This document shows, piece by piece, positions 20,998 to 51,473 of a DNA stretch of 64,000 nt. Numbering within the stretch: position 1 is the first letter of the stretch; every line of letters starts with the position of its first letter. The notes beneath the pieces are model-generated. The model was given only the letters and a program-made list of their open reading frames with translations. It was not told where the DNA came from and made no database searches. This DNA is from Acidobacteriaceae bacterium. Its GTDB lineage: Bacteria; Acidobacteriota; Terriglobia; Terriglobales; Acidobacteriaceae. The stretch lies in the NCBI GenBank assembly GCA_003140235.1, contig PLJN01000037.1:1-64000 (forward strand). Direction: 5' to 3'. A program made the position numbers and the translations under genes.

Positions 20998-21006
20998 AGA
21001 GGTTTT

Positions 21007-21139
21007 ATCCCGAGCGACAGCGAGGGATCCCTATGGCCGAGAATAGTCTCCAGGTAAAGAGATCGCAGTTGCCGCTTCAAACTTGTTCTCAGAAACGAGA
21101 CCCTTCAGGATCATAGGGTTCCCTCGCTACGCTCGGGAT
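21007..21139. repeat. Long imperfect inverted repeat between hpnA and its upstream gene
   Basis: Arms ATCCCGAGCGACAGCGAGGG (then ATCCCTATG) at 21007-21035 and CATAGGGTT then CCCTCGCTACGCTCGGGAT at 21112-21139 can fold into a hairpin with a 76-bp loop region. Same architecture as the element at 55280-55410. Its position inside the operon could reduce transcription of distal genes or stabilise the upstream message (inference). Confidence 0.8.
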
Positions 21140-21144
21140 GTTGG

Positions 21145-21597
21145 CTAAGAAAGCGCTTCTGGCTCAATCCTGATGTTTTTCTCACCCGACTGTTTCTTTT
21201 CCCAGTACTTCTTGACCCAGGCTTCCCAGCTCTTGCCCGCTGCCGGATCGCGGTCGGAAAATTTCAGCGCGGCGATTTCGGCATACGGCACCACAATTTT
21301 CTGGTTGGAATCCTTCGGCAGCAGGCGGACAACCGACTCGATTAAGGTCCGGCCCGTGCGTCGATCAAAAATGTAGCCTTCGATCGTGGTACCGTCTTTG
21401 CGTGTGATGATCACGTCGCCGCGATAGTCGAACGCTTTTTCCAGTGCGCTGCGGACTTCCTCTTCGCTGGCCAGCTCAGGCACCCAGCCTTCTAGCTTCT
21501 CGTGCGCGAATCCCGGGACTACTTCAAGCGTGTCGGGGTCTTTGGCCAGCAACGCCGGATCTTCCACGGCTTGTCGTCCATTGGCGGAGCCGCTCAT
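21145..21597 (-). CDS. Conserved hypothetical protein in the hopanoid operon
   Basis: 150 residues, soluble, no signal peptide. The central part (DYRGDVIITRKDGTTIEGYI, later RLLPKD and IVVPYAEIAALKFSDRD) looks like a small beta-barrel, Sm/PRC-like fold, but no family is assigned with confidence. ATG 21597 overlaps the hpnH stop by 4 bp, which indicates coupled translation and a linked role. Confidence 0.75.
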   Translation of the reverse strand: MSGSANGRQAVEDPALLAKDPDTLEVVPGFAHEKLEGWVPELASEEEVRSALEKAFDYRGDVIITRKDGTTIEGYIFDRRTGRTLIESVVRLLPKDSNQKIVVPYAEIAALKFSDRDPAAGKSWEAWVKKYWEKKQSGEKNIRIEPEALS

Positions 21598-36539: not shown

Positions 36540-36603
36540 CGCAAGCTCACTTTCATTCTTTGATTCCCGGCGCTCTTTTCTTGTAGCATAAATGAAGACG
36601 TAC

Positions 36604-36672
36604 AAGGCGATGGAGTTCGCCTTTAACCGCCGTTACGGCTGATGACTCCTACAAATCTTTCGTAGGAGTTCG
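36604..36672 (+). ncRNA. Fluoride riboswitch with ribosome-site-sequestering hairpin
   Basis: The sequence GGCGATGGAGTTCGCC, then TTTAACCGCCGTTACGGC and TGATGACTCCTAC, matches the crcB motif consensus (GGNGAUGG, UUCGCC, UAACC, UGAUGACUCCUAC). The 3' ACTCCTAC pairs with GTAGGAGT, which contains the crcB ribosome site. Expected action: fluoride binding frees the site and allows CrcB synthesis. Confidence 0.92.
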
Positions 36673-36674
36673 CC

Positions 36675-37049
36675 ATGCTGCAAGGCTTGCTGCTCGTGAT
36701 GTTAGGTGGCGCTCTGGGCGCCGCTGCTCGTTATCTGATCACTCATTTTTCCTCACAACAGACTCATCACCAGGGCTTTCCCTACGGAACGCTGGCGGTC
36801 AATGTGATTGGTTCTTTTGTTGTGGGCTTTGTTCTGACCTGGTCGGAAGACCACTCGCATGATCGCTGGCGGCTGCTTCTGGCAACAGGATTCTGCGGCG
36901 GTTTCACCACGTTCTCAGCTTTTGCCTACGAATCCATGAAGTACTGGCATGGCGGCCAACTGCTCCTGCTGGCCCTAAATGTGGGCTTGAATAATTTTCT
37001 GTCTTTTCTCGCCGTGCTGTGCGGGATTGCGGCGCACAAAACACATTGA
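36675..37049 (+). CDS. crcB: Fluoride ion channel CrcB/Fluc
   Basis: 124 residues, four membrane helices. Characteristic segments: GGALGAAARYLI, GTLAVNVIGSFVVGF (with the pore Asn) and GFCGGFTTFSAFAYE. Works as a dual-topology dimer exporting fluoride. Controlled by the riboswitch immediately upstream, which covers its ribosome site GTAGGAG. Confidence 0.95.
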   Translation: MLQGLLLVMLGGALGAAARYLITHFSSQQTHHQGFPYGTLAVNVIGSFVVGFVLTWSEDHSHDRWRLLLATGFCGGFTTFSAFAYESMKYWHGGQLLLLALNVGLNNFLSFLAVLCGIAAHKTH

Positions 37050-46107: not shown

Positions 46108-46356
46108 ATGACCATAACCCTGGACTTAAATCTTGAAGTGGAGAAGAGTCTCTCGGCACAAGCACAGGAACGTGGCGTCTCACTGTCCGATTATCTTCAG
46201 GAGATCGTAACCCGTAAGGCCCGGCTTTCCGTTCCCTCGCCATCCGCAACCACGGCGAACAATTTGTCCGACCTGCTTCTGAACTCCCCGTTTGCGGGAG
46301 CGAACCTCAATCTGGAACGTTCTCAAGATTATCCGCGTTCGGCTGAGCTTGAATGA
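46108..46356 (+). CDS. VapB-type antitoxin (partner toxin decayed)
   Basis: 82 residues. The start MTITLDLNLEVEKSLSAQAQ, followed by VSLSDYLQEIVTR, is the N-terminal half of ribbon-helix-helix-like antitoxins of PIN toxins. A strong ribosome site (AAAGGAGAG) precedes it. The final TGA overlaps an ATG for a PIN-like reading frame (ATGA), the usual antitoxin-toxin overlap, but that frame is broken. Confidence 0.75.
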   Translation: MTITLDLNLEVEKSLSAQAQERGVSLSDYLQEIVTRKARLSVPSPSATTANNLSDLLLNSPFAGANLNLERSQDYPRSAELE

Positions 46357-46445
46357 ACGGGTTTCCTGATCGATACAGACGTTTTGTCGGAATACAACCG
46401 GCCCGGCCGGCCAACTATTTGTTTTGTTCCACTGGCGAAACGGTG
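46353..46445 (+). pseudogene. Frameshifted, truncated VapC/PIN toxin remnant
   Basis: From ATG 46353 the sequence would read MNGFLIDTDVLSEYNRPGRP if one extra T in GGGTTTCCTG is ignored. This is the typical first strand of a PIN toxin, with its catalytic Asp. The remaining two thirds of the domain are missing before the next gene remnant. Confidence 0.75.
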
Positions 46446-46495
46446 CGCCACCGACGATGGACGGACAAAACACCTCGATAACAGGCGGTAGGAAT

Positions 46496-47380
46496 ATGCA
46501 GAAAAAGCGCAGGTCACCGAGACGACGCGAGCAGAAACGACCCGCGAATCTTCATCGGTTCTTCCGCCGAGGGACTGGAGGTAGCAAGAGCACTGCAATC
46601 CGCGCTCTACTATGAGGCCGAGCCAGTCATATGGGCCAGGGCGTATTCGGGCTTTCCGGGGGAACTCTTGAAACCCTTGTAGAAGAATGCCGCAACTTCG
46701 ATTTTGCAGTCTTTGTTCTCTCCGCCGACGACTTCGTCCAAAGGAGAGGACAGCACGGGAACGCTCCACGCGACAACGTGCTTTTCGAGCTAGGGTTGTT
46801 CATGGGTCAACTAGGCCGTGACCGAACATTCTTCGTTCACTGTCTAGCCGACCACCTCCTACTGCCGACGGATTTGGCCGGAGTTACTCCAGCATCCTAT
46901 CTGCTCCCGAGTGAGCCCCGCTACATCCATGCAGCGCTCAGTGCAGCAACCTCCCCAATACTTGCAACCGTACAAAGGCTTGGCCCTCGCCCCACGGGAG
47001 GAAGCCAAGCGAATTCGCTGCCCAAGGAGCTAACTGAGCTTCGCGCGCAAGTCGCCGAGATGCGTATTACTCTGTCATCGTTCGCAGTATACGCACAGGC
47101 GCTACCCTCCAGAGAAGGCAGTGCTGAGACCAGAAAAAGAAAACCTCTAGATAGAAAGGCATTAAGAGTCTTGGCAGGGACTTGGAAAGAAGAGCCAAGC
47201 GATTCCGTGGCTTGGTGCACTCTGGAGGGTAGCAAGCCACGTTTCCTATACTGTTTTCTAGGTGACGGCACCCCGACGGGGGAATATTACGACTGGAAGA
47301 GAACCGGCAATGTCCTTTCGGGCAAGTTCAGATGGTTTGAGAGCAAGGACATACACGGGTATGCCTGGTTTGGGTATTAA
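46496..47380 (+). pseudogene. Frame-disrupted TIR-like nucleotide-binding effector
   Basis: The long frame from 46631 gives 249 residues with VFGLSGGTLETLVEECRNFD, FAVFVLSADDF, RDNVLFELGLFMGQLGRDR and LLPTDLAGVTPASY, the signature of predicted TIR-like nucleotide-binding (CAP12/PF10137-type) proteins. The missing first strand, RIFIGSSAEGLEVARALQSA, is present upstream from about 46545 in another frame, and frames switch at about 46635 by one missing base. A second frame change is needed to reach ATG 46496. The C-terminal 110 residues (SDSVAWCTLEGSKPRFLYCF) are an additional beta-rich domain. Probably inactive, unless the 46631 frame is used alone. Confidence 0.75.
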
Positions 47381-47466
47381 TATAGTTGCCGCATCAGAGA
47401 GTTTTCCCGCTCATTTTTCCTGATTTTGATTGTCTCAGGATTCCCCTACGGGATATGATTGTGTTT

Positions 47467-47649
47467 ATGAAGGCTGAAGCCCCTCTACACCCGCCCGGAG
47501 AAACCGAGTTTGAGCGATTCTCTAATCTGACCAAGCGGGTTTTATCCGTGCCATATTCGGAAATTCAGAGTCAGGTAAAAGCGGAGAAAAAGCAACGCGC
47601 CCGCAAAAAGGAAAAGCGGGCTAAGAAGCTGTCCGCTTCCCCCGCTTAA
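47467..47649 (+). CDS. Small basic protein, possible antitoxin-like
   Basis: 60 residues from ATG 47467 (ATG 47455 adds four). FERFSNLTKRVLSVPYSEIQ followed by a Lys/Arg-rich tail resembles a common short family in Acidobacteria and others with FxxLxxxxLxVPxxEI, often annotated as antitoxin-like or hypothetical. No partner toxin is adjacent. Confidence 0.5.
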   Translation: MKAEAPLHPPGETEFERFSNLTKRVLSVPYSEIQSQVKAEKKQRARKKEKRAKKLSASPA

Positions 47650-47669
47650 TCCTACCGTACATTTTTATT

Positions 47670-48662
47670 TTAGAACGGCTCCGCTTCGACTCGTAAGGTC
47701 TTTCCCGTCACTTCATCAAACGTGAGCCGTTTACCAACTATCTGCGATACTGCTAGCCTGAAGCGCTCAAAATCGGTGACGGGCATTTCGCGGTTGCCGC
47801 GATTGTTGTAACGGAACGTCTGCTCATCCAAGTACCGGAACAAATGAAACGGTTCAACGCTGACATACGTTCCATTTATGCCACGCTTCAAGAGACTCCA
47901 AAAGTTTTCCAGCCCGTTCGTGTGGACTTTGCCGCGAACGTACTCGACCGCATGGTCTACAACTTTGTGCGCGTATTCAGACGCCAGACCTTCATACGAG
48001 AGTAGGAAGTCGCTGTATAGAGCGCTCCCCGCTTGCACGTGCTGTTTCACTTCGGCCTGAATGGTTTTCTTTTTCCTGTCAGGAATGACAGCGGTACGGA
48101 CTTTGCTATGCGTACCTTTGTCGGAATCGCCACGCTCAAGAATGCCCATAACAGCGGTCTTGCCTTGCGTCCCGGTTCCCGTGATGCGCCGTTTCTTTAC
48201 GTCAATGTGCATGTTACGCGCCTTACCGCCGATGAAAGTTTCGTCCGCTTCGCACTCGCCAGTCATCAATTCAAGAGTACCGCTGCGAAAGGCTTTGCGA
48301 ATTCTGTGCATCATGAACCATGCGGATTTTTGTGTGACGCCGATATCGCGCCCGACTTCGTAGCTGCTTTTCCCGTTCTTGTCATTGGCCAGCATCCACA
48401 TTGCCGCAAGCCACTTATCAAGGCCAATGGGCGAGTCCTCGAAGATCGTACCGACCTTGACGCTGAATTGCCGATGGTCATGTGTGCTCTTGCATTGCCA
48501 CTTGCGGCGATTGGCAAGGAACCGCGCATCGGTGCGGCCACACTTCGGACATACAACGCCATCCGGCCACCGCTGGGACACCACGAAATTAAGGCAGTTG
48601 TCGGGGTTGCTAAAATACAGGATCGCTTCTTGCAGCGTTTCGGGTTGGTTCATGTTGTCCAT
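47670..48662 (-). CDS. IS1595-family transposase
   Basis: 330 residues. N-terminal zinc ribbon (CPKCGRTDARFL... WQCKS), helical region, then the ISXO2-like DDE domain: GECEADETFIGGKARNMH (first Asp/Glu), LYSDFLLSYEGL (second Asp) and VHTNGLENFWSLLKRGINGTY (the IS1595 Asn/Glu). No terminal inverted repeats or target duplication could be found within 100 bp either side, so the element ends are undefined. Confidence 0.9.
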   Translation of the reverse strand: MDNMNQPETLQEAILYFSNPDNCLNFVVSQRWPDGVVCPKCGRTDARFLANRRKWQCKSTHDHRQFSVKVGTIFEDSPIGLDKWLAAMWMLANDKNGKSSYEVGRDIGVTQKSAWFMMHRIRKAFRSGTLELMTGECEADETFIGGKARNMHIDVKKRRITGTGTQGKTAVMGILERGDSDKGTHSKVRTAVIPDRKKKTIQAEVKQHVQAGSALYSDFLLSYEGLASEYAHKVVDHAVEYVRGKVHTNGLENFWSLLKRGINGTYVSVEPFHLFRYLDEQTFRYNNRGNREMPVTDFERFRLAVSQIVGKRLTFDEVTGKTLRVEAEPF

Positions 48663-48798
48663 GAACCAAGATTACGCTTATTCGTTTGATGCGTCAAGCG
48701 GATGATGTTTTGGTTGCACCTGTAAAGCAATGAAAACAATGATGTTACAAATGTGGAAAATAAATCAGTTCTATATCTACGCGGGATAGAAAGCAAAT

Positions 48799-48966
48799 GG
48801 CCTTTCGCCAATTTATCGTTGACGAAAGGCCACTAAAAGGTGAATAATAACTCTCGTTAGGCCGAAAGAGAGGTGCTCACCATGGTTAAACATGCCGACC
48901 ATGGCTTATAGCCTAGGTCGCTTCTAACATCGGCTCCTGTTCACAGCAGGAGCCGAAGGTTTTTAA
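48799..48966 (+). ncRNA. Candidate structured RNA with terminal hairpin
   Basis: Five successive stems with little between them. GGCCTTTCG/CGAAAGGCC (48799-48807 with 48823-48831). GGTGA/TCACC (48839-48843 with 48877-48881) enclosing CTCTC/GAGAG (48851-48855 with 48868-48872). CCATGG/CCATGG (48880-48885 with 48899-48904). CGGCTCCTG/CAGGAGCCG (48931-48939 with 48947-48955) followed by a T-run at 48960-48964, terminator-like. No match to a known RNA class is recognised. The AT-rich surroundings differ from the rest of the window. Confidence 0.45.
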
Positions 48967-48976
48967 AAATCCCCTC

Positions 48977-49023
48977 ACAAGTTAGCAAACTCAAACTCGC
49001 GAGTCTGCTTACAAGTTAGCAAA
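48977..49023. repeat. Short direct and inverted repeats, operator-like
   Basis: Direct repeat ACAAGTTAGCAAA at 48977-48989 and 49011-49023. Between them the perfect palindrome ACTCGCGAGT (48995-49004). GTTAGCAAACTC and GAGTCTGCTTAC also form an imperfect inverted repeat. Could be an operator or the end of a mobile segment. Confidence 0.5.
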
Positions 49024-49071
49024 ATAATTGCCGAGCGTCAACGATAAGCCAAAGAATCGGGGAATTGCGCA

Positions 49072-49359
49072 ATGTTACTAAAGTACATGTACCAATGGAC
49101 AGGGCGAACAGACAGTGAAAAATCGTGCCGTCTGCCGTCTCACCGTAAGACATTACCCTTTGATGCTACACCTATATTGACGCCCTGGTTTGAGATAGTT
49201 GGGGAGAATCAACTTCGCGGTGGGTGGTGGATGCACGGAGCGGTTCCGAAACATCTTGTATCGAAGTTACCCCACGTTCCAAATATGGTGCCTTCAGAAT
49301 GGAACAAAGTTAGTGCGTCCGTCGATGCCAAAGCCCAGACCTACTTCGTGAAGCCCTAA
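49072..49359 (+). CDS. Small hypothetical protein
   Basis: 95 residues with six Trp and no recognised family (TPWFEIVGENQLRGGWWMHG). No clear ribosome site. It lies in an AT-rich stretch between the structured region and the TcmP pair. It may be a real accessory gene or chance. Confidence 0.35.
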   Translation: MLLKYMYQWTGRTDSEKSCRLPSHRKTLPFDATPILTPWFEIVGENQLRGGWWMHGAVPKHLVSKLPHVPNMVPSEWNKVSASVDAKAQTYFVKP

Positions 49360-49411
49360 CGAAAAAATGTAGATCTCCGAAATACCAGCACTTAATAGCG
49401 AGTGCCCTGAA

Positions 49412-50314
49412 TCAAAATGCAAGCGAATTCTGCACTTCTTTTGGAAGAGCACGCACAGCCTGATGATGGGCGCGAACCATCAGCGCCGGAGCTTCTTCAT
49501 GGTCGGAGGCATGGATCATGTAATACATGATTCTGTTGCCCTTTTGCTTGTCGAAGATCGGGTAGGCAGCAGCATGACGGTATCCCAGTTCTTCCTCAAA
49601 GCGCTTTCGCACGGTCTCGGCGATCTGGAAGGCGGTTTCTTTTTTCAGGCTCCGCCAATTGTCATTCCCCCACCAATTCCGCATCGTATCCACGTGGCGA
49701 ATTCCGGAGAAGGCACGATGCAGCCAACCGACCCCAAGAAAGTAGAGCAATTCAATTTTATTGTGCGGAGGCGTCTTGTAATCAGCCAGTTTCTTCACGG
49801 TAGCCCAGTGGCATTCAAATGTTCTCTGGTCCAACAAGCAAAAAGTTGCTTCCTTCTGCGTGATCTTGCCTGTGGCCAATATTGCATCGACATTGACGTT
49901 GAAATCACCAGGCCAGACTTCAATGTTCCGATAGAGCTTCCTCCCTCTGCGGTCGCGCGGTTCCGGCTGTTCCGCCACGAGCTTCTCCAATGCTCGAACA
50001 CCTTTTTTTGTCAGTTCGCATAGAAAGATGTGGCGAAGCCACTTGGGCTCACTTTCGAGTACCAGCGCAGCAGCCCACGCGTCTGGCTGGTCATGATACT
50101 GAGGACCAGCGAAGCCGTCGATATATGCTCCATTGTGGGTGACTTGTACAAAGAAGTAGAGATATTTCTGGATGAATTTTGCTTTGTGTTCTGTCCAGAT
50201 TGACTGAGAAACTCTCTTGTATCTCCTGACCTTCTTCTTGTCAGCGGGCGTGAGGTCTGGGAAAAGTGGAGCGGTATCCACGTCGGATTCGCCTTGCAGC
50301 TTGCGCCGGTTCAT
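49412..50314 (-). CDS. tcmP: Three-Cys-motif partner protein TcmP
   Basis: 300 residues. KYLYFFVQVTHNGAYIDGFA, GPQYHDQPDAWAAALVLESE and ATFCLLDQRTFECHWATVKK are features of the TcmP family, which has a methyltransferase-like core (YIDGFAGPG-type motif, here YIDGFAGPQ) and almost always accompanies a three-Cys radical-SAM-like partner. Its stop is at 49412; its start overlaps the partner stop by 4 bp. Function unknown. Confidence 0.85.
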   Translation of the reverse strand: MNRRKLQGESDVDTAPLFPDLTPADKKKVRRYKRVSQSIWTEHKAKFIQKYLYFFVQVTHNGAYIDGFAGPQYHDQPDAWAAALVLESEPKWLRHIFLCELTKKGVRALEKLVAEQPEPRDRRGRKLYRNIEVWPGDFNVNVDAILATGKITQKEATFCLLDQRTFECHWATVKKLADYKTPPHNKIELLYFLGVGWLHRAFSGIRHVDTMRNWWGNDNWRSLKKETAFQIAETVRKRFEEELGYRHAAAYPIFDKQKGNRIMYYMIHASDHEEAPALMVRAHHQAVRALPKEVQNSLAF

Positions 50315-51114
50315 CTTGCGTCTGCCAATTGAACTCCTAACAGGGCCGCAATCGCTTTTCGTTTCGATGGGGGGGGCATCGTATTTCTGCTAGTGATCGG
50401 AAATTCATCAAATGTACGATCCTGCAAATGCCGGCCTGCTTTGTGTTTGCGTACACCGCCCCACTGCTTAAAAAAGAACGGAACCTCGTACATACGGCAG
50501 TAATGAAGGACGTTGAGTGCCCATGATTCCTGCATCGGCCGGGCTCCCGGTCCGCTTTCTCCGCCCACAATGACCCAGTTAATGTGCGAGAAATCCAATG
50601 TTCCTAAATCTTCAAGGAGTGGTTCCACCGAAAGAAATTTTACGGCGGCGGGCGTTTGCCGCAAATGCTCGATACGCGGCTTACCGTGTTTGATATTTTC
50701 GACGCTTACACCCCACCAAATGTGTGGCGCCCCGGCCGCAAATCGAAGTGCGCCGTTTAGGAGCTTTTTTAGACGATCTGAGCGCTTCGTAAGGAGTTGG
50801 TAGGTGTGCCAGTTGGCCTCCATCATGACTTTGGCAATCTGGATGATGAACGCATCAGGCACTTCAGGATGAAACAGATCGCTCATTGAATTAACAAACA
50901 CCATCCTCGATGATGTCCACGAGAATGGCTCCAGAACCTTATCCCAGACCAACCGGATATCGAACCCTCGCTCGTAGGGGTGTCCTTTAACGCCTCGGAA
51001 CCTCTCAGCGAATGCCTCGGCGTAACAGTGCTTGCACCCCGGGCTGATCTTGGTACAACCGCGCACTGGATTCCACGTTGTATCAGTCCATTCGATTTTT
51101 GTGTTCGTAGCCAT
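50311..51114 (-). CDS. Phage Gp37/Gp68-type three-Cys-motif protein (DUF5131)
   Basis: 267 residues. Starts TKIEWTDTTWNPVRGC followed by C20-x6-C27-x2-C30 in GCTKISPGCKHCYAEAF, a radical-SAM-like [4Fe-4S] pattern with six-residue spacing. FVNSMSDLFHPEVPDAFI, QLLTKRSDRL, WWGVSVEN and VIVGGESGPGARPM are the family's conserved blocks. Four-bp overlap with tcmP shows a two-gene operon. Related proteins occur in phages and mobile islands; reaction unknown. Confidence 0.9.
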   Translation of the reverse strand: MATNTKIEWTDTTWNPVRGCTKISPGCKHCYAEAFAERFRGVKGHPYERGFDIRLVWDKVLEPFSWTSSRMVFVNSMSDLFHPEVPDAFIIQIAKVMMEANWHTYQLLTKRSDRLKKLLNGALRFAAGAPHIWWGVSVENIKHGKPRIEHLRQTPAAVKFLSVEPLLEDLGTLDFSHINWVIVGGESGPGARPMQESWALNVLHYCRMYEVPFFFKQWGGVRKHKAGRHLQDRTFDEFPITSRNTMPPPSKRKAIAALLGVQLADAR

Positions 51115-51218
51115 GGCTAATTGGGCCTACATTGTAACTCGCACCACGATTAAGCACCCTATCGTATTCGCCTTGTGTTCGCTTTTTATTTTACCATAAT
51201 GCATTTGACGGAACCAAA

Positions 51219-51473
51219 TTGTCGCGGGAAGAGGCTGCAGAGGCGGGCGGGATCAGCCCCAATTTTTTAGGCCAGGTAGAGCGCGGCGAGAGCGAACCCG
51301 GCCTACAATCGATCTTCAGCATCGCTAAAGGCCTGCGACTTTCTCCCTGCGCTCTTCTTACGGACAAAGAGGAAGATCCCAATCTGCTCAAGAAGACCCA
51401 GCAACTGGTAGCGAATGCCACTCCCGACCAGCTCACGTTGCTGTACCGCATCGCCAAAGTAATCGTGGGATAA
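51219..51473 (+). pseudogene. N-terminally truncated XRE-family HTH protein
   Basis: 84 residues from a TTG. LSREEAAEAGGISPNFLGQV, then ERGESEPGLQSIFSIAKGL, is helices 2-5 of an XRE domain, but the usual first helix before it is absent: no in-frame ATG or GTG precedes it, and the nearby ATG at 51199 is in another frame. Probably a remnant, or a very short repressor started at TTG. It diverges from the DUF5131 gene. Confidence 0.5.

Follow-up and report, generated by a model that had tools for sequence, protein, structure and literature searches.

Between an IS1595 transposase gene and a TcmP-DUF5131 mobile gene pair lies a short, AT-rich intergenic stretch (48799–49023 of the window, that is, of the whole 64,000-nt stretch of DNA analyzed here), which raises the question of whether it encodes a structured RNA, possibly one belonging to a mobile neighbor, or acts as control DNA. 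An earlier note had described it as a structured non-coding segment, and this structure is real: every hairpin, terminator, and repeat named there is present (Table 1). Our analysis suggests that the stretch is most likely a local promoter-operator-terminator region, from which a short orphan RNA may be transcribed.

Table 1. Positions of the features in and around the intergenic stretch (window coordinates)
Feature	Position	Strand	Remarks
IS1595 transposase	47670–48662	−	Neighbor of the segment
Hairpin H1 (palindrome)	48798–48807/48823–48832	none	TGGCCTTTCG...CGAAAGGCCA; 10 bp plus inner 4 bp
12-mer TTATCGTTGACG, copy 1	48813–48824	+	Last six bases form the −35 of P1
Putative promoter P1	48819–48848	+	TTGACG - 18 - AATAAT; consensus match only
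Hairpin H2	48839–48843/48877–48881	none	GGTGA/TCACC; inner CTCTC/GAGAG at 48851–48855/48868–48872
Candidate small RNA, ~109 nt	48855–48963	+	Prediction, P1 start to terminator
Hairpin H4	48897–48900/48916–48919		Inner 48903–48906/48910–48913
Intrinsic terminator	48930–48963	+	Stem 48930–48941/48945–48956, then AGG and TTTTT
Direct repeat, copy 1 (operator-like)	48974–48989	none	CTCACAAGTTAGCAAA
Direct repeat, copy 2	49008–49023	none	CTTACAAGTTAGCAAA; covers the −10 of P2
Putative promoter P2, facing P1	49013–49041	−	TTGACG - 17 - TAACTT; consensus match only
12-mer TTATCGTTGACG, copy 2 (inverted)	49036–49047	−	Includes the −35 of P2
ORF95 (orphan, 95 aa)	49072–49359	+	GGGGA Shine-Dalgarno-like site; weakly coding-like
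TcmP-DUF5131 mobile pair	49412–51114		PADLOC PDC-M41; TIGR04474, PF07505

The minimum free energy (MFE) of positions 48790–48975 was −69.9 kcal/mol, against a mean of −43.95 kcal/mol for shuffled sequences (z = −6.5), and none of 200 shuffles folded as low. An exact 10-bp hairpin stem recurred in only 0.5% of 1000 shuffles of 48700–49072, and a CCATGG pair is located between H2 and H4. When 48797–48968 was folded, the z-score was −6.0 on the plus strand and −7.9 on the minus strand; in other words, the minus strand folds equally well or better. The middle (48836–48925) by itself gave z = −2.2, near chance. With the middle so close to chance and the minus strand a match for the plus strand, the signal is mostly that of the H1 palindrome and the terminator. 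A strong intergenic z-score can arise in this way from one palindrome and a terminator, and therefore the score alone cannot be read as a structured RNA. Several other segments of the window (e.g., at 21007, 25087, and 37087) were more structured than 48799–49023 in a whole-window scan of MFE corrected for base composition. The top segment for its composition, 21000–21145, corresponds to a long inverted repeat with imperfect arms (CCCGAGCG...CGCTCGGG).

These values bear directly on the reading of the earlier note, a single longer structured non-coding RNA of ~170–180 nt on the plus strand, with H1, H2, H4, and the terminator as its helices. The z-score of −6.5, helix probabilities near 1, and the clean terminator at the end are consistent with such an RNA, but no good plus-strand promoter was seen upstream of 48799, the near-chance middle and the equally good minus strand speak against it, and no homologue in which covariation might show was found in the genomes searched. 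We therefore regard the longer RNA as rather unlikely.

A terminal stem with a T-run had been reported with a length of 9 bp; both are present on the plus strand, but the stem has 12 pairs, including one G-U. Our data support a non-coding, regulatory segment that includes a terminator. H1 read on the minus strand is weakly terminator-like as well, with the stem followed by TTTGCTTTCTAT. The stretch could be ordinary DNA between genes that holds two terminators unrelated to each other, one on the plus strand for rightward transcripts and H1 for the leftward TcmP-DUF5131 operon, the rest being chance and operator repeats. The concentration of the fold signal in H1 and the terminator, the scoring of minus-strand H1 as a terminator with 16 pairs and a T-rich tail, and the absence of conservation all agree with this; however, H1 lies ~580 bp beyond the tcmP stop with a poor T-tract, and this reading would leave unexplained an inverted pair of 12-mers that is unique and has −10 boxes at the correct spacing. 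We consider it doubtful, to the same degree as the longer RNA.

This 12-mer pair was overlooked in the earlier note. The sequence TTATCGTTGACG occurs only twice in the 4.9-Mb genome assembly (~89% complete), and both copies lie at this locus and face each other at a distance of 211 bp; a distant 12-nt inverted repeat arose in 0.5% of 1000 shuffles of 48700–49072. The paired direct and inverted operator-like repeats reported after the terminator were also found: two 16-nt copies, identical at 15 of 16 positions with a 34-bp period, enclose the 10-bp palindrome ACTCGCGAGT. An exact 13-nt close direct repeat appeared in 0% of 1000 shuffles of 48700–49072. Each 12-mer copy supplies a TTGACG followed, at a suitable spacing, by a −10-like box. 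Among the 56 TTGACG sites on the two strands of the 64-kb window, P1 ranked first and P2 third, the second being a promoter-like site directly upstream of the IS1595 transposase gene. Local shuffles equaled the −10 score of P1 in 2.2% of cases and that of P2, whose −10 box is mediocre, in 6.7%. H1 overlaps the −35 of P1, and the best-scoring promoter-like site in 48690–49075 falls inside H1/H2. Because the pattern had been noticed before it was tested, the promoter and 12-mer statistics are suggestive and no proof. We infer promoter activity of P1 and P2 only from post-hoc consensus matches in AT-rich DNA.

Our best explanation, to which we assign a probability of about 0.38, is a compact intergenic control region with two facing sigma70-like promoters on a shared 12-bp element, together with operator-like repeats. 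Each promoter would be built around one copy of TTATCGTTGACG, which contains its −35 box. P1 would transcribe rightward to give a terminated RNA of ~109 nt, whereas P2 would transcribe leftward to give a transcript antisense to the P1 RNA, possibly with a weak end at H1. A regulator acting on the shared 12-bp element, on the CAAGTTAGCAAA repeats, or on both would couple the two promoters.

A strong terminator lies 80–110 bp downstream of P1, and the segment probably makes a small RNA of ~110 bases, as judged from its sequence. In the predicted fold of the 109-nt candidate, a closing stem GUUAG/CUAAC (48856–48860/48924–48928) surrounds three small hairpins, followed by the terminator; this stem has a probability of ~0.6 and begins at the second base of an RNA starting at 48855. 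The candidate gave z = −4.4 with the terminator and −1.95, near chance, without it. When transcription was assumed to start upstream, the closing stem was lost and H2 formed in its place in the predicted fold; the same DNA can therefore be read either as the H1/H2 hairpins or as the 109-nt RNA. If P1 sets the start, H1 and H2 would be promoter/operator DNA outside the RNA, and H2, which sits over the −10/+1 of P1, is either a DNA symmetry or a piece of a longer RNA. Against the control-region explanation stand the ~60% probability of the closing stem, the near-chance fold once the terminator is removed, the competition from H2 if the start is upstream, and the fact that no relative with a recurring arrangement was seen.

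As the earlier note had stated, no known RNA family was recognized: none of 4227 Rfam families matched 48660–49420 at the gathering threshold, and matches such as the L31 leader (18.9 vs. 35) and Histone3 (18.1 vs. 34) were sub-threshold. The sole gathering-level match in the window was a fluoride riboswitch (36597–36658, 66 bits), which lies directly upstream of an ORF for a CrcB-like membrane protein (36675–37049), a textbook arrangement. A blastn search with the segment against its own genome, 60 relatives, plasmids, phages, and E. coli yielded no homologue, only 25–27-nt chance matches at query positions 40–66. Covariance models of 172 nt (R1) and 109 nt (R2), each built from a single sequence so that distant relatives could be missed, were then run on 396 genomes of the phylum (Acidobacteriota) plus 9 of the genus (R1) and on 399 genomes of the class (R2). 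They gave only weak matches of 16.7–21.2 bits, against self scores of 226.6 and 140.3, which we treated as chance. Exact-pattern scans of viral contigs gave three matches, which from their context we took to be chance matches in DNA that looks coding. As the hundreds of related genomes searched contained nothing similar, the function of the segment is unproven. If it is transcribed, it would represent a small RNA specific to its lineage, with convergent promoters arranged as a pair, in a phylum that has received little study.

Downstream of the control region, ORF95 is a neighbor of the unit and a possible target. A protein search of 299 class genomes and other collections found no relatives of it, and Pfam, NCBIfam, PADLOC, and PHROGs gave no family match; its AlphaFold model (pLDDT 48) was too poor for a fold search, and the protein is not hydrophobic by eye. 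A minus-strand ORF of 45 aa (49016–49153), antisense to ORF95, has a hydrophobic middle and an AAGG before its ATG, and is probably due to chance.

The order of promoter, structured leader, terminator, ribosome-binding site (GGGGA), and ORF on one strand, together with the weakly coding-like frame of ORF95, would suit an attenuator-type leader, in which transcription from P1 halts at the terminator unless a signal permits read-through. However, inspection by eye revealed no anti-terminator pairing that convinced us, P2 and the operator repeats intervene between the terminator and ORF95, and ORF95 is without relatives, so that we find an attenuator improbable.

Alternatively, ORF95 could be under antisense control in the manner of type I toxin-antitoxin systems, which consist of an antisense RNA and a small hydrophobic toxin. 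The loop of H1 together with its 3′ arm (UUAUCGUUGACG) could pair with 49036–49047, just upstream of ORF95, through a 12-nt complementarity that is perfect and unique in the genome, and 49044–49051 also matches the H4 loop region over 8 nt. Yet the paired −35 elements explain the same 12 nt equally well, the orphan ORF95 does not look like a small hydrophobic peptide, and the H1 loop would lie outside the RNA if P1 is the real start; we judge this mechanism highly unlikely. It would likewise be a long shot to propose a new small-RNA control module, in which convergent promoters under one 12-bp operator produce the 109-nt RNA and its antisense to control ORF95 as an unrecognized toxin or defense protein in a defense island.

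As to the left-hand neighbor, the earlier suggestion of a transposon end is not supported. The IS1595 transposase group has 17 matching stretches in this genome, including the copy described here, and no locus fetched for the other IS1595-type transposases contains the segment. Nor were terminal inverted repeats located for this copy; the search for its ends gave only a 7-bp repeat, CGGGATA, at 47449 and at 48782, no more than chance would produce. A transposon end or a mini-element tied to this copy might still be imagined from the adjoining transposase and from the GCCAA outside both inverted 12-mers (one base out of register), which resembles a mini-element with a target duplication. However, one H1 arm would then fall outside and the other inside the element, the segment is single copy in the genome, and the other IS1595 transposase loci examined show no similarity, making such an origin extremely unlikely. 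A small ORF (47467–47649, from an internal ATG of 47386–47649) is convergent to the IS1595 transposase gene. DNA matches show its 3′ part to be conserved beside two further IS1595 transposases of this genome, so that it is likely an accessory ORF of this IS group. A TIR-domain gene (46431–47380, CAP12/Pycsar effector-like) appears frameshifted, its N-terminal IFIGSSAEGLEVA part being in a different frame from the rest, which would reflect a pseudogene or an assembly error.

As to the right-hand neighbor, the earlier note had proposed the RNA part of a mobile or defense element, which our data do not support: neither the 172-nt nor the 109-nt model found a credible relative. The TcmP-DUF5131 pair has relatives in other phyla, and both models failed to detect the RNA at 14 loci with TcmP relatives. 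In a Granulicella locus whose TcmP is 66% identical, 4 kb beyond tcmP are kept without the RNA, and beyond the pair there is an ORF that by eye resembles DarG. At two others of the 14 loci (L017 and L018), the flank is too short for a presence/absence call. The pair is a neighbor of the segment and no partner. The literature searched contained no mention of DUF5131. Upstream of the DUF5131 gene, an XRE-type helix-turn-helix (HTH) ORF (51219–51473) starts within its HTH domain, at position 10 of the 55 positions of the profile, and its start is therefore probably truncated or frameshifted. In a member of the genus whose ORF list was viewed, the flanking hydrolase has a homologue with 85% identity, and nothing corresponding to the island was recognized in the portion of the list inspected.

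In all likelihood the segment is a regulatory region of the ordinary kind, with a small-RNA candidate that is a singleton. A retron msr-msd would have an adjacent reverse transcriptase, and none was found among the neighboring ORFs scanned (46108–51473). Membership in an IS1595 element likewise found no support, the single-copy segment not being repeated with the transposase copies fetched. The adjacent genes (49412–51114) belong to a PDC-M41 pair, but relatives of this pair elsewhere have no detectable copy of the RNA (0/14 loci), and membership of the RNA in that system is not supported. Type III toxin-antitoxin systems of the ToxIN kind carry tandem RNA repeats upstream of a terminator and a ToxN-family toxin. 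The order of structured RNA, terminator, and small ORF, as well as a direct repeat of period 34, is shared here; however, the repeats follow the terminator and comprise only two 16-nt copies, and ORF95 matches no toxin or other family, so that this assignment was also rejected. Convergent-promoter antisense control regions are known, for example, from the pAD1 par locus and plasmid copy-control RNAs. No toxin peptide, replication gene, or homologue was recognized for the present segment, but it resembles those regions in having two facing putative promoters, a short terminated RNA as predicted, operator-like repeats, and a common sequence at both starts.
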